From the NCBI GenBank assembly GCA_024278345.1, contig JAJRTK010000463.1, positions 1 to 9,827 of the forward strand: a stretch of 9,827 nucleotides of DNA, written 5' to 3'. The DNA comes from a bacterium. GTDB taxonomy: Bacteria; CSSED10-310; JAJRTK01. A model generated the notes under the pieces. That model was not told the DNA's origin, searched no databases, and saw nothing but the letters and a program-made list of their open reading frames with translations. A program made the position numbers and the translations under genes. Shown piece after piece: positions 1 through 9,390 of this stretch. The first letter of the stretch is position 1; each line of letters starts with the position of its first letter.

Positions 1-710
1 CGCGATTCCACGGTAGTAAAGGCATTTCCCCCCTGATACGGCTGGTCGGCCCGATTCGACGTCGCAGAGCCCGCAAGCACGATGTACACTTCTCTGGGCA
101 AGTCGGGGAAACGATCCGTCGCCCGCAGCAGACAGGGGGCATGGTAATGGCCGGAGAGCACGATGTCCACCCCGAGTTCCGCAAGGCTGCCCAACGTCTG
201 GCGCGAACGGATCTGGGGCATCTACCAGAGGCCGGGAAAGGAAAGAAGCGGATGATGGGTCACGACAATTCGCCTTGCCACGCCGGGAAACTCTGATATG
301 CGGAGCTCCAACCGTGCAAGCTGACGGGCTGTGACCATGCCTCGGTGGACCAGATAGGGTTTGCTGGAATCGAGGCCCAAAACCAAAAGCTGGCCCAGGC
401 GAACTTGCGGTTCAGTCGTCTCGTGGATAAACCGCTTGTAAAGCTGGTAAGGTTGTAGGAATCGGTGGACTGGATTCAAGATCGAGATTTCGTGATTCCC
501 CGGAACACTCAGGTAGGGCCGGTCCAGGCTGTCGAGGAAGCGCCTGGCCCGGGCAAACTGCGCGGGAAACGCCGCCCGCTGGACCAAATCCCCGGAAACT
601 ACGACCAGGTCGGGCTTCAGACGCCCGATACACCTTTTCAACGCCGCGACTCGATCCCACCGGATCGGAGGACCAAAGTGCAGATCGGAGATGTGAACAA
701 GGAGACTCAA
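1..710 (-). pseudogene. calcineurin-like metallophosphoesterase, 3' end outside window, interrupted by an in-frame TAG
   Basis: Calcineurin-like phosphoesterases use a two-metal centre to hydrolyse phosphomono- or diesters. Counting from the TTG at 710, the family motifs appear in order: ISDLHFG (D9, H11), SGDL (D41), PGNHE (N72, H73) and THHPL (H152, H153). After residue 162 the frame meets TAG at 222-224, then continues open to the left edge and holds the last metal motif, SGHYHAP (H188, H190). The domain is therefore complete only if the stop is read through, and the 162-residue product alone would lack the GHxH motif. I chose TTG 710 because the family normally begins a few residues before HISDLH. 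It has a weak GAAAGA upstream. An ATG at 854 also fits the frame, but its AAGGAG lies only one base before it and the added 48 residues look non-coding. The gene is divergent from the SH3/beta-helix gene. Substrate unknown. A point mutation, an assembly error or TAG recoding are all possible. Confidence 0.82.
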
Positions 711-914
711 GAACAGTCTTTCAAAGAAGGCGCCTCCGCCCGGACAGGCCAGACGGAGGAACCGCGTAGGCAGACTCTTGGGAAAGACCGGCCGGGCGCC
801 TGGCGCTCGGGGAATTCGCTTCGAGTCGGGGGCAAGCTCAAGGCAGTTTATCATGCTCCTTGGACAGCGGCGAATCCCCGCCGCACCGCCAAACCGCAGC
901 CGCGGGCGCGCCCA

Positions 915-2201
915 ATGAAAATGTTGGCGTTTTTTCTGGGGGCCTGGGTGGCGGGAATCCTCCTTGCCTGTCTACCGTCGCCCGCCGAAGCAAAGACAGC
1001 CAAGATCAAGGTCGATCTGGCCAATATCCGAGAGGGCCCTGACACCAAGATGGCTCGGGTCGGCCGCGCAAAAAGGGGCACGGAGCTCGCCGTCCTTGGC
1101 GAAAAAGACCAATGGCTCAAGGTGGAGCTACCAGACGGGCAACAGGGCTGGATCTGGGCTTCCCTGGTCACCATCACGGACGCCGCCCCCACGCCGGCAC
1201 CTCCGGCAACGCCTCGGGCAACACCATCTCTGGATGATCTCCGAGGGATGGCCGCGAAGCTGGCGGCGGGACAGATCAAGAATCTTCGGACGGCCCAGAC
1301 CTTCTGGATCCTCCAAGAAGCGGTCACGAGCGCTCAAACGGGGGACCGCCTTCTGTTGGGTCCAGGACGCTATCCAGGCCGCCTCGTCATTGGAAAAGAG
1401 CTTCGCCTCTTTGGCGCGGGAATGGACGAGTCCATCATTGAGCTTGATCGGGATAAACAAGACTCCGTTTGGATCCAGGCAGCCTGCCCCAAGGCCATCT
1501 TTGCTCACGTCACCTTCCTGGGAGGCAAGGGCAAACTTCCCCTCGTGGAGATCAATGGCGCCTTCAAGGGCCTCTTGACCCACTGCCGCTTCAAAGGCGG
1601 CAAGGGCGTGGCACTGGCCATCGGCGACCGGGCCACGCCCACCATCGCCAACTGCGAATTCATCAAGACCGGAAAGGTGGCCATCGAAGTCCGGGGGCAA
1701 GCCGCACCGCTCCTTGAGCTCAACCAGGCCAGCGACGGACAGGGCGGAGGCATCGTCGTCTTCGATAGTGCCGCGCCGATCATCCGAGGAAACCGGATCC
1801 ATGGAATGAATGCCTTTGGCATCCAAGTCGCTGACCGATCCCGCCCCATCCTGGAAAGCAATGTCGTGGAAAACTGCCGCCTGGACGGAATCTACGTTCA
1901 GCACCTCGCCGCGCCCACCATCCGAGGCAACTCCATTCTCTCCAATGCTCAAAACAGGCGGGACACGGCGAACCTCTCTTTCGACGACGACTCCGCGGGG
2001 ATCGTCGAAGAGAACGTCATCGCGGGAGCCGAGCGGCGGCCGGGGCTCCTGGTCATCAAGAATGCTCACCCGCTGGTCCAGCGAAACCAGTTCTTCCGCA
2101 ACAAAATCGCCATCCGCCTCGAAGACAAGAGCTATCCCACCCTCCGAGAAAATCACCTTGTGGACAACGGGGACGATCTCCAGGACAAACGGGACAAATG
2201 A
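915..2201 (+). CDS. exported SH3b - right-handed parallel beta-helix protein
   Basis: This 428-residue protein probably acts in the envelope or periplasm. Residues 1-26 form a signal peptide (MKM, a hydrophobic core, then a PAEA signal-peptidase I-like site). An LLAC at residues 16-19 is a poor lipobox, so lipoprotein processing is possible but less likely. Residues 28-84 match a bacterial SH3 (SH3_3) domain, with NIREGP, a WLKV strand and a GWIWASLV end. A Pro/Ala/Thr-rich linker follows. From about residue 120 to the end there are PbH1/NosD-like repeats of 22-24 residues, each with a pattern like P-x-I-x-x-N-x-(I/V), as in PTIANCEF, PIIRGNRI, PILESNVV and PTIRGNSI. SH3b domains often bind cell-wall material, and beta-helices often bind or cleave polysaccharide; no catalytic residues are evident. 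The frame is open back to 465, but that part lies antisense to the phosphoesterase. ATG 915 fits the signal peptide although it has no clear Shine-Dalgarno sequence. The gene converges on the response regulator with a 38-base gap. Exact function unknown. Confidence 0.85.
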   Translation: MKMLAFFLGAWVAGILLACLPSPAEAKTAKIKVDLANIREGPDTKMARVGRAKRGTELAVLGEKDQWLKVELPDGQQGWIWASLVTITDAAPTPAPPATPRATPSLDDLRGMAAKLAAGQIKNLRTAQTFWILQEAVTSAQTGDRLLLGPGRYPGRLVIGKELRLFGAGMDESIIELDRDKQDSVWIQAACPKAIFAHVTFLGGKGKLPLVEINGAFKGLLTHCRFKGGKGVALAIGDRATPTIANCEFIKTGKVAIEVRGQAAPLLELNQASDGQGGGIVVFDSAAPIIRGNRIHGMNAFGIQVADRSRPILESNVVENCRLDGIYVQHLAAPTIRGNSILSNAQNRRDTANLSFDDDSAGIVEENVIAGAERRPGLLVIKNAHPLVQRNQFFRNKIAIRLEDKSYPTLRENHLVDNGDDLQDKRDK

Positions 2202-4674: not shown

Positions 4675-6555
4675 ATGAAGAGCATTCCCCCCACGGAACC
4701 AGCGAGCAAGAGTCCTCCCCCTTGTGGAACCACACCGGCGGCCCATGGAGATCTACCTGCCCCGGAGTTCCGGGCCGCTGCCCACCGCGTCGCCGACATC
4801 ATGGCCGACTACCTGGAGAACGTGGGCGACTACTCGGTTCTTCCAGGAATCGAGCCCGGCTTCGTCCGCTCCCGGATTCCTCGGGAGCCACCCTGCGAAT
4901 CCGCGCCCATGAACGCTATCCTGGACGATTACCAGAAGCTCATCGAGCCGAACGTGACCCACTGGAACCACCCCGGGTTCCTGGCCTACTTCGGGATCAC
5001 CGGATCGGGGCCCGGCATTCTGGCCGAAGCCCTTGCCGCGGCTCTCAACGTCAATGCCATGCTTTGGAAAACCGCGCCGGCGGCCACGGAGCTGGAGGAG
5101 CTCACTTGCGACTGGCTCAGGCAGATGATGGGTCTCCCCCAGGAATTTCGGGGCCACATCAATGATACGGCGTCCATGAGCACACTCCTTGCTCTGGCCA
5201 CTGCCCGGCACGAGCTTCCGGGCCTGGAAATTCGAGAGAAGGGGATGGCGGGACGAAGTGATCTCCCGACCCTTGTCGTTTATACCAGCGACCAGGCTCA
5301 CTCCTCGGTGGACAAGGCCTGTATCGCTCTTGGAATCGGCCATGGAAATGTCCGCCACATCCAGTCGGACGACGCCTTCCAGATGGAGGCCAAGGCGCTT
5401 CAAGAGGCGATCAGAGCCGACCGCGGCAGTGGGAAAATCCCCGTATCCGTCGTGGCCACGGCCGGCACGACATCGACGACGAGCGTCGATCCCCTTCGGG
5501 AAATCGGAGAAATCTGCCGAAAAGAGGGCATCTGGTTTCACGTGGATGCCGCCTACGGCGGTAGCGCGGCGGTCTGCCCAGAGCTGCGCCCCCTTCTCAA
5601 CGGGATGGAACTCGCCGATTCACTGGTCGTCAACCCCCACAAATGGCTCTTTACGCCCATTGACTGCTCGGTCCTCTTCGTCAAGAACCCCGACGCCCTC
5701 AAGCGGGCCTTCTCTCTTGTTCCGGCCTACCTGGAAACCAGCGAAACCCACGTGACAAACCTCATGGATCTCGGAGTTCAGCTCGGTAGAAGATTCCGTG
5801 CGCTAAAGCTTTGGATGGTCATCCGCTCCTTCGGTGTCAAGGGCATCCAGAAGCGGATCCTGGCTCACTGTGAAATGGCCCGGGAATTGGCGGGCTGGAT
5901 CGAGGAGAAGCCGGGCTTTGAGCTGTCCGCTCCCGTCCCCTTCAGCACCGTCTGTTTCCGCGCCGTTCCCAAGCTCGATCCAGAAGATCAAAATCGCTAC
6001 AACCAACTGTTGCTGGACAAAGTGAACGCCCGGGGACCCGTCTTTCTTTCGCCTACACGCTTGCGAGGGCAAACAGTGCTTCGTGCCGCCATCGGCAATC
6101 TTCGGACAACCCCCGGCCACGTGAAACAAGCCTGGGACATCATCGTCCATGCGAACCAAGAGCTCGGAGCCACCTCCGGGGCTGGAAAAAAATCCGACCT
6201 CGACGCACAACCGGAAGCGCCCAAAGAAGAGGCTCCGGATAGAGGCTCCGGAAATCCCTTCGACGACTTCGGCGAGCCCGTGGAAATCCCCATCGACGGA
6301 TGCCTCGATCTCCACACTTTCCAGCCTCGGGAGGTCAAGGAGCTCGTCCCCGACTACCTGGAGGCCTGTTGTGAGAAGGGGATCCTGGACGTGCGTATCG
6401 TTCATGGCAAGGGAACAGGCACCCTTCGCGGAATCGTTCACTCCATCCTGAAACGACATCCGATGGTGGCCAGCTACCGGCTGGCCGACGAGCTCCGCGG
6501 CAGTTGGGGAGCCACGGAGGTGCGGCTAAAAACAGCAGAGGGAACGAGTCGCTGA
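4675..6555 (+). CDS. PLP-dependent aromatic-L-amino-acid-type decarboxylase fused to a C-terminal Smr domain
   Basis: A 626-residue two-part protein. Residues about 25-495 are a group II PLP decarboxylase, the family that turns aromatic amino acids into amines. It has the HWNHPGF substrate-side motif, the PLP-stacking H209 in SDQAHSS, the ATAGTTSTTS loop, D291 in FHVDAAYGG (pairs with the pyridine nitrogen) and the Schiff-base lysine K323 in NPHKW. This part alone matches the usual family length of about 470-490. A charged linker (about 496-540) leads to a Smr domain (543-623) with LDLH (544-547), HGKGTG (577-582) and a GATEVRL end. Smr domains bind or cut nucleic acid. ATG 4675 has GAAGG at 4661-4665, nine bases upstream; the in-frame TTG at 4609 adds 22 residues unlike the family. 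The stop overlaps the sulfotransferase start by one base. All catalytic residues seem intact. Substrate (Trp, Tyr, Phe or other) cannot be told. What the Smr part does for the decarboxylase is unknown. Confidence 0.93.
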   Translation: MKSIPPTEPASKSPPPCGTTPAAHGDLPAPEFRAAAHRVADIMADYLENVGDYSVLPGIEPGFVRSRIPREPPCESAPMNAILDDYQKLIEPNVTHWNHPGFLAYFGITGSGPGILAEALAAALNVNAMLWKTAPAATELEELTCDWLRQMMGLPQEFRGHINDTASMSTLLALATARHELPGLEIREKGMAGRSDLPTLVVYTSDQAHSSVDKACIALGIGHGNVRHIQSDDAFQMEAKALQEAIRADRGSGKIPVSVVATAGTTSTTSVDPLREIGEICRKEGIWFHVDAAYGGSAAVCPELRPLLNGMELADSLVVNPHKWLFTPIDCSVLFVKNPDALKRAFSLVPAYLETSETHVTNLMDLGVQLGRRFRALKLWMVIRSFGVKGIQKRILAHCEMARELAGWIEEKPGFELSAPVPFSTVCFRAVPKLDPEDQNRYNQLLLDKVNARGPVFLSPTRLRGQTVLRAAIGNLRTTPGHVKQAWDIIVHANQELGATSGAGKKSDLDAQPEAPKEEAPDRGSGNPFDDFGEPVEIPIDGCLDLHTFQPREVKELVPDYLEACCEKGILDVRIVHGKGTGTLRGIVHSILKRHPMVASYRLADELRGSWGATEVRLKTAEGTSR

Positions 6556-7723: not shown

Positions 7724-9355
7724 TCACCGGATGAGGGAAGTCCCCGTAGCGGAGGCAGTGAGCCAGATGGGAGAGGATTCGGCCCGATCACCATCCGCTT
7801 GCTCAACTTGAACATAATAGTAGTGATCAGCGCCGGCATCTGGGACATCGAAGCCCCAGGTACCAGACGTGGTGACTACGGGCTCGGTGCGAAAAAGATT
7901 CCCGTCGCGATAGACGTCGATGCGGGTAAACTGTTCCTTGTCCGGATCGTCGAACCCCACCAAAAACGAGGCGGCACCTCTTCCCAGAGCCGAACCCATT
8001 TCAGCACCTGCCGAAGTTGTGAAATTCAGTTCGAGATTCTTGTCCTCGGATGCATAGAAGCGCCTGGCGCGATAGCCTTCCAAAAGTCCGTCCATGGTAA
8101 GATCGGGGGCAAGCACGACCGTTCGGACATCGTTTCTCAAGCCGTAGTCGGCCACATGGTTGTCCTGGGCCGTGACACTCCCAACACGCCAGCCCATGAG
8201 CAGCGCCTCATTGTAATAATCGTAACTGCCGTCGTATCCCACTGAAAACTCTTCAAAACCGTTGTTCTGGATCGTTTCGATCCCCACCATTTGCTCCGCC
8301 AGGGAGGAGCGAAGCTCAAAGTGGTTGAATTCCACGCCAAACAGGTCGTAGCCCCCAGGATGATTGAAGGTCACGATGGACCTTGGCTGCCCCTCCAACC
8401 AGTCGTAGAACTTCGAAACAGTCCATTTGTTTAAAGCGCTTACGAACTTCGTCGTATTCATCACTACATAGTGGCCCATGGCCGGGTTGGAATACTCGAA
8501 GCCCGGGAAAGCCACAAAAACACCCGGTTCCGTCATTTCCGCCGCTGTCTGCCGGAGAGACTCAAAGCGATTCGCCCCCAAGAACTCGGCATGCTCACTC
8601 AACCCCATGAAATCCATGCCGGCCTCATCACGGGCCATGATCCAGGCATCTCGAGGCGACGGGGCCTTTTTTCTGGCATCGATGGAATACCGCGAGTGGG
8701 CATGGAGAAAACCACGGTACCCAGTCCAAGAACTCTGCCGCGTCCGGGCACTCAACTCCACGAGCCCGCCTTCCACGGCCGTTCGCTCCGGCCGGCGCAA
8801 AGAAGGCCGAGGAGGCTCGATCATCCCGAACTCCGGTACATGGTCTGCCGCCTTGCTCCGCCGAACCAACCCGGCCAGGCCCGGGACCCGCGACGGATGG
8901 AGCTCCATGAAAAGATCGTCCATGAGGAAAAAGGGACTGACATTCCGCCGCGCAAAATCCCGGCTCATCAAGAGTGCCCGAAGGCAATCGCTTCGGCTCC
9001 GCCCCATCTCCAGAGCATCGACGAACGCCCGGAGCTCCCGAGCAACCGGAGGACGCTCCACAACAACCACAAAGGCCGATGTCACAAACTCCTCGTCAGA
9101 CGCCTCGCCGCGGAAGGCCTCCGAGTCCACCAGGGCACGAAAAAACGACCAACGGGTCGAGCCCCGTTTCAGGGTAGAAACCCAGCCTTGACGTTCGGAA
9201 GGCGAAGGCCGACGACCAAGGACCCCCTGAAAAGACTGCTCTACGAACTGGGCCTGGGTCAGCCTTTGCTTGAGGAACTCAAAAGGAACCTGGTCATGGG
9301 CAAACGCCGCCGCCGCCGAAAGAAGTGCAAGGAAAACCCAGAATGCCTTCTTCAT
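7724..9355 (-). CDS. exported DUF4214-like / PHP-domain metallohydrolase (CehA/McbA type)
   Basis: A 543-residue exported protein. Residues 1-19 are a signal peptide (MKK, a hydrophobic core, then AFA before HD). Residues about 35-82 and 88-135 look like two DUF4214-like helical repeats (for example QSFQGVLGRRPSPSERQGW, then VSTLKRG and the FFRALVDSEAF helix). From about 212 to 435 there is a PHP metallohydrolase domain: FLHAH (H218, H220), D226, SEHAEF (E254, H255), FPGFEYS (E287), GHY (H295), NHPGG (H332) and QDNH (D398, H400). These are the metal ligands expected for a PHP trinuclear site. The C-terminal beta-rich part ends in YYYVQVEQADG...SSPIW, common in CehA/McbA relatives. That family includes carbaryl and other hydrolases; the substrate here is unknown. 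ATG 9355 has GGAGGG seven bases upstream and starts directly with the signal peptide, so I prefer it to ATG 9379. The gene converges on the sulfotransferase across a 218-base gap in which I see no clear element. Confidence 0.9.
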   Translation of the reverse strand: MKKAFWVFLALLSAAAAFAHDQVPFEFLKQRLTQAQFVEQSFQGVLGRRPSPSERQGWVSTLKRGSTRWSFFRALVDSEAFRGEASDEEFVTSAFVVVVERPPVARELRAFVDALEMGRSRSDCLRALLMSRDFARRNVSPFFLMDDLFMELHPSRVPGLAGLVRRSKAADHVPEFGMIEPPRPSLRRPERTAVEGGLVELSARTRQSSWTGYRGFLHAHSRYSIDARKKAPSPRDAWIMARDEAGMDFMGLSEHAEFLGANRFESLRQTAAEMTEPGVFVAFPGFEYSNPAMGHYVVMNTTKFVSALNKWTVSKFYDWLEGQPRSIVTFNHPGGYDLFGVEFNHFELRSSLAEQMVGIETIQNNGFEEFSVGYDGSYDYYNEALLMGWRVGSVTAQDNHVADYGLRNDVRTVVLAPDLTMDGLLEGYRARRFYASEDKNLELNFTTSAGAEMGSALGRGAASFLVGFDDPDKEQFTRIDVYRDGNLFRTEPVVTTSGTWGFDVPDAGADHYYYVQVEQADGDRAESSPIWLTASATGTSLIR

Positions 9356-9362
9356 CCTAAAT

Positions 9363-9368
9363 CCCTCC
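9363..9368 (-). promoter_or_regulatory. strong Shine-Dalgarno for the PHP protein
   Basis: GGAGGG on the minus strand, seven bases before ATG 9355. It decides the start: the ATG at 9379 lies upstream of this site, which would then fall inside the coding region. Confidence 0.7.
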
Positions 9369-9390
9369 GTAGTTGGCATGGAAACGAGTT

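Follow-up and report, generated by a model that had tools for sequence, protein, structure and literature searches.

Organization of the fusion gene

Analysis of the window, i.e., the whole stretch of 9,827 bp, revealed one gene (4675..6555, forward strand) in which two complete domains with intact motifs, an aromatic-L-amino-acid decarboxylase (AADC)-type PLP enzyme and a Smr domain, are joined in one reading frame by a linker predicted to be disordered, an arrangement that was unique among the genomes searched. This AADC-Smr protein appears to display a domain architecture not described before; a literature search, mostly without subscription journals, gave no paper on it. We regard it as probably a genuine lineage-specific fusion of two working proteins, whose functions would be independent. 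Its Smr half is easily overlooked when the gene is named as a decarboxylase alone. The source genome is a MAG-like draft of 550 contigs (87.9% complete), and the fusion is known from this one genome.

The initial annotation had read positions 4675-6555 as a decarboxylase and a Smr domain in one chain, and its coordinates and residues were confirmed by a reading frame check: the frame opens with ATG at 4675, ends with TGA at 6553-6555, and comprises 626 codons (626 aa) with no internal stop. The residues listed there as kept, namely H209, D291, and K323 in the enzyme as well as LDLH (from residue 544) and HGKGTG (from residue 577) in the Smr domain, were all found in place, and the view of both halves as complete agrees with the ends of standalone relatives, the decarboxylases ending at query residues c. 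490-505 and the Smr proteins starting at c. 533. Between the two domains lies a hydrophilic linker of about 40 residues (residues 501-543, 6175..6303, forward strand), which is rich in A, D, E, G, and P. In a model of the whole chain, whose alignment covered the enzyme half only, both halves were folded, whereas residues 502-537 had a pLDDT below 50. A joint alignment of both halves for one structure was dropped, since decarboxylase C-termini were misaligned onto the Smr domain.

Characterization of the enzyme half

The decarboxylase occupies residues 25-500 (4747..6174, forward strand), and its Pfam match to PF00282 (Pyridoxal_deC) at residues 61-430 covers positions 1-374 of the 375 in the profile (E 1.9e-103). 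Its solved relatives are DOPA and aromatic amino acid decarboxylases (PDB 7xin, 1js3, and 6eei), which align over about 460 residues, the full length of the enzyme half (406 bits for 7xin); compared with these, the fusion protein has an additional C-terminal linker and Smr domain. In animal and bacterial DOPA decarboxylases of solved structure, the catalytic His, Asp, and Lys stand at the positions aligned with H209, D291, and K323 of the fusion, and these three residues are invariant in 18 relatives. With K323 as the PLP lysine, H209 as the stacking histidine, and D291 as the aspartate at the ring nitrogen, the residues expected of a PLP group II enzyme are all present. In the family members used, 96 columns are invariant in all others, and the fusion departs from three of them, which lies within the range of the relatives when each is left out in turn. 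Judged by sequence, the enzyme half would decarboxylate an aromatic (or related) amino acid, a substrate that the sequence itself does not fix.

In regard to the active-site loop, the position of animal Tyr332 is taken by Leu363 in the fusion (NLMDLG, window positions 5761-5772, forward strand), and the NLMDLG loop is also present in Acidobacteriota relatives. Reading the loss of Tyr332 as a sign of an aldehyde synthase was rejected: the bacterial-type DOPA decarboxylase 7xin likewise has Leu at this position (NLRDWG), and Leu363 is thus no evidence for an altered reaction. Three residues past Leu363, the fusion carries Leu366 where most relatives have Tyr.

Characterization of the Smr half

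The Smr domain (residues 544-619, 6304..6531, forward strand) matched PF01713 over the complete profile (1-77 of 77, E 9.5e-22), a score that, like that of the enzyme half, lies far above chance level, and harbors the nuclease-type motifs DLH (residues 545-547) and HGKG (577-580). Its solved relatives are Smr domains of MutS2, and the AlphaFold model of this half (mean pLDDT 77.6, with blocks of about 90 or higher across most of the domain) matched the Smr domain of T. thermophilus MutS2 with a TM of 0.91 on target; the best PDB matches were Smr domains, and YdaL, MutS2-disome, and SmrB-disome structures were matched as well. A C-terminal Smr domain is common to MutS2 and KOW-SMR proteins, but the fusion has no MutS core, ATPase, or KOW domain, and the MutS2 profile TIGR01069 matched only the Smr part (540-618) with 53 bits against a cut-off of 400. 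The SmrB equivalog NF003432 gave 24.7 bits against a cut-off of 128, so that the protein reaches the cut-off of neither family profile. The closest relatives of the fused domain are standalone proteins of 85-140 aa, up to 69% identical, and small standalone Smr proteins such as E. coli YdaL/SmrA and SmrB ("family 3" of PMC3200294) share the domain, the HGxG motif, and a SmrB-like DxH. Unlike them, the fused domain is attached to an enzyme and lacks a clear start of its own.

SmrB, which has an N-terminal uS2-binding hook, and other mRNA-cleaving Smr proteins are marked by DxH, and its loss is tied to the absence of cleavage, e.g., in the non-cleaving MutS2 of B. subtilis, which has DLR (PMC10897456). 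The sole other Smr match in the genome studied here is the C-terminus of a separate MutS2-like protein with IDLRG replacing LDLH; the fused domain is therefore the sole Smr of the DxH type detected in this draft genome, so that a metabolic enzyme carries the only nuclease-type Smr found there. MutS2 and a standalone Smr protein usually do not occur in the same genome (PMC3200294); here, a standalone-type Smr domain coexists with MutS2 in one genome, but carried on an enzyme.

Distribution among bacterial genomes

Comparison with other genomes revealed the decarboxylase and the Smr domain in one frame in the source genome only (genome counter 1,942, some sets overlapping). None of the seven other genomes of the phylum had such a pair; they were without a close decarboxylase relative of this kind, and six of the seven had the small Smr as a separate gene. 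Generally, relatives of the decarboxylase (up to 67% identical) and of the Smr domain (up to 69%) are encoded by separate genes that are not neighbors. Among the matches listed, decarboxylase and Smr lay at different places, and none held both domains, in 60 diverse genomes, in 82 genomes of a phylum in which the two genes occur commonly, in sets of 4 and 195 genomes, in the 16 genomes of the closest decarboxylases, and in 396 genomes from the phylum of an acidobacterial hit, for which three candidates were scored per genome. When C-terminal queries were run against 392, 395, 7, and 386 genomes, a full match came from the own genome only; two of these searches (392 and 395 genomes) used a strict cut-off and had no positive control inside the set. 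A recurrence of the fusion in related genomes, which the initial annotation had put forward as a check, was thus not seen in any genome searched.

The 19 named relatives belong to Planctomycetota, Gemmatimonadota, and Acidobacteriota, with one from Chloroflexota. Since a tree placed the enzyme of the fusion beside Acidobacteriota, with weak support (80/52), a transfer is possible. An origin from a mobile element was rejected, as plasmids yielded no near-full match and viral contigs no relative.

Reading frame across the linker

A frame error is conceivable at one place, an A7 homopolymer within the linker (6186..6192, forward strand; GGA AAA AAA TCC), which could hide an indel. With another number of A at 6186-6192, the region might represent two genes: one A added leads to a stop of the decarboxylase at TAG 6240-6242, and a Smr protein could begin from GTG 6280-6282 (V536, forward strand), close to where standalone Smr proteins begin, the two families being separate genes in relatives as well. 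With one A fewer, reading continues out of frame. Against this explanation, the stretch of 31 codons from the A7 tract to GTG536 carries the codon signal of the genome in frame 0. Scored with the codon usage of 103 long open frames (about 150 kb of the same genome sampled), frame 0 reached +10.8, compared with -0.6 and -13.0 for the two remaining forward frames. The score in frame 0 was reached by none of 2000 shuffles; one reverse frame scored 11.9, so that the test separates forward frames, not strands. In addition, the genome commonly contains runs of A7 or longer within its long open frames, with 10 of them in 140 kb, and the tract alone is not suspicious. A separate Smr gene would have neither ATG nor TTG as its start, GTG536 being the only candidate in the Smr frame at residues 486-550, where no obvious Shine-Dalgarno sequence was found. 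Separate genes with a stop between them in related genomes had been named in the initial annotation as the sign of an artefact, and separate they are; as they are not even adjacent there, and the linker codes in one frame, this arrangement does not demonstrate an artefact. Altogether, a frame artefact or a decay of the fusion is unlikely, because the codon signal stays in one frame across the linker past the A7 tract and neither half has lost invariant residues.

A programmed -1 frameshift at A_AAA_AAA, yielding a decarboxylase-only product, was considered as well, the phase of the heptamer being right and the -1 stop lying at TAG 6240. It was set aside because A7 or longer runs are common in the open frames of this genome and no relative with a fused gene was found.

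Other enzymes with a C-terminal Smr domain

Smr domains had been described in the initial annotation as normally alone or on MutS2-like proteins, which is right but not exclusive, since our survey of Smr genes also brought up two fusions of unrelated enzymes in unrelated genomes. One gene (L111:1495-2445, reverse strand, the same gene as L117:4588-5538, reverse strand) encodes a PRAI (TrpF)-like domain (PF00697) followed by a small Smr (316 aa), while the other (L017:853-1749, forward strand, the same gene as L118:1767-2663, forward strand) encodes a HAD hydrolase with a C-terminal Smr (298 aa). As in the AADC fusion, a soluble enzyme carries the same small Smr as its C-terminal part in both proteins; their enzyme halves, however, are unrelated to the decarboxylase, and the linker is short or absent (PRAI-Smr: LLDNPEPEQLTIPIDG). 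In the HAD-Smr protein, PGKG replaces HGKG, and its gene is located directly downstream of a HisF-like gene. The PRAI family acts in the synthesis of aromatic amino acids, and the PRAI-like half reads IIQIAGI at the usual site of the N-terminal catalytic cysteine, where TrpF has KICG, so that this cysteine is apparently missing. These independent fusions show that the Smr domain tolerates C-terminal attachment to unrelated soluble enzymes; AADC-Smr is therefore unique in its partner, not in kind.

Probable origin and possible function of the fusion

Probably, the gene for a bacterial aromatic amino acid decarboxylase came to be located directly 5' of a small Smr gene that had stood alone, and the loss of the stop of the first gene and the start of the second would have led to one reading frame. 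Known AADC relatives are dimers, and the product would be a decarboxylase dimer from which two Smr domains extend, each tethered flexibly by about 40 residues. The two activities are most likely independent, which we took as the default since evidence for coupling was not found. The Smr half would keep the role of a small DxH-type Smr, i.e., its targets for binding and nicking would be RNA on ribosomes that have stalled or collided, or branched nucleic acids, with the enzyme as its carrier; speculatively, dimerization could raise its avidity for paired ribosomes. Of the three options offered by the initial annotation, namely RNA-linked regulation, moonlighting, or a lineage-specific accident, we favor a lineage-specific fusion, since the architecture is non-recurrent in the genomes searched and the genes are not close in the relatives examined; evidence for RNA regulation was not found. 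Without coupling, the gene would represent a clean case in which two complete proteins were fused with a neutral or near-neutral outcome.

A functional coupling, in which the enzyme would be recruited to stalled ribosomes or to RNA through its Smr domain, or binding of RNA (e.g., its own mRNA) would tune the amount or activity of the decarboxylase, would link amine production to ribosome stress. The intactness of both halves is consistent with it, and the same kind of C-terminal Smr on a PRAI-like protein and a HAD hydrolase hints at repeated selection. We nevertheless give it little chance: the AADC-Smr pair does not recur, a shared pathway logic is weak with a PRAI-like partner that apparently has no catalytic cysteine, and the linker is long, predicted to be disordered, and without a conserved interface.

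Even less probable is a passive leftover, in which read-through joined the Smr domain to the enzyme and the domain is now without function. The single occurrence and a neighborhood that is not conserved would fit it, but 14 columns do not vary among 16 other Smr proteins, and the fusion keeps every one of them, including DLH, HGKG, and GAT. With residues invariant in relatives kept on both sides, neither half seems to resemble a relic. Finally, a loose, undescribed class in which metabolic enzymes (AADC, PRAI-like, and HAD) have repeatedly acquired a small Smr domain at the C-terminus, each enzyme serving as carrier or sensor and thereby linking metabolite state to the rescue of ribosomes or to mRNA cleavage, seems highly doubtful.

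Neighboring genes

Downstream of the fusion gene, a sulfotransferase gene (PF13469; 6555..7505, forward strand) was identified, whose ATG overlaps the stop of the fusion gene (TGATG); therefore, the two are probably co-transcribed and co-expressed. A sulfotransferase adjoining an amine-making enzyme could form a small pathway, an arrangement not seen in relatives. A conserved neighborhood was rejected, as in none of the 19 named loci did the decarboxylase have a sulfotransferase or a Smr gene as its neighbor, and the standalone Smr genes of relatives lie in varied neighborhoods, none with a decarboxylase. Upstream of the fusion gene, a PhoB/PhoR-like pair is encoded on the opposite strand.

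Two further genes of the window were characterized roughly. At 465-2201 (forward strand), an open reading frame encodes a protein with a SH3-like domain and a right-handed beta-helix (NosD-like), whose true start is probably at c. 900-915, because the upstream part overlaps a metallophosphoesterase gene on the opposite strand. At 7724-9379 (reverse strand), a protein of 551 aa harbors an N-terminal DUF4214 repeat; its C-terminal part, without a Pfam hit, resembles by eye a PHP/DUF3604-type phosphoesterase.
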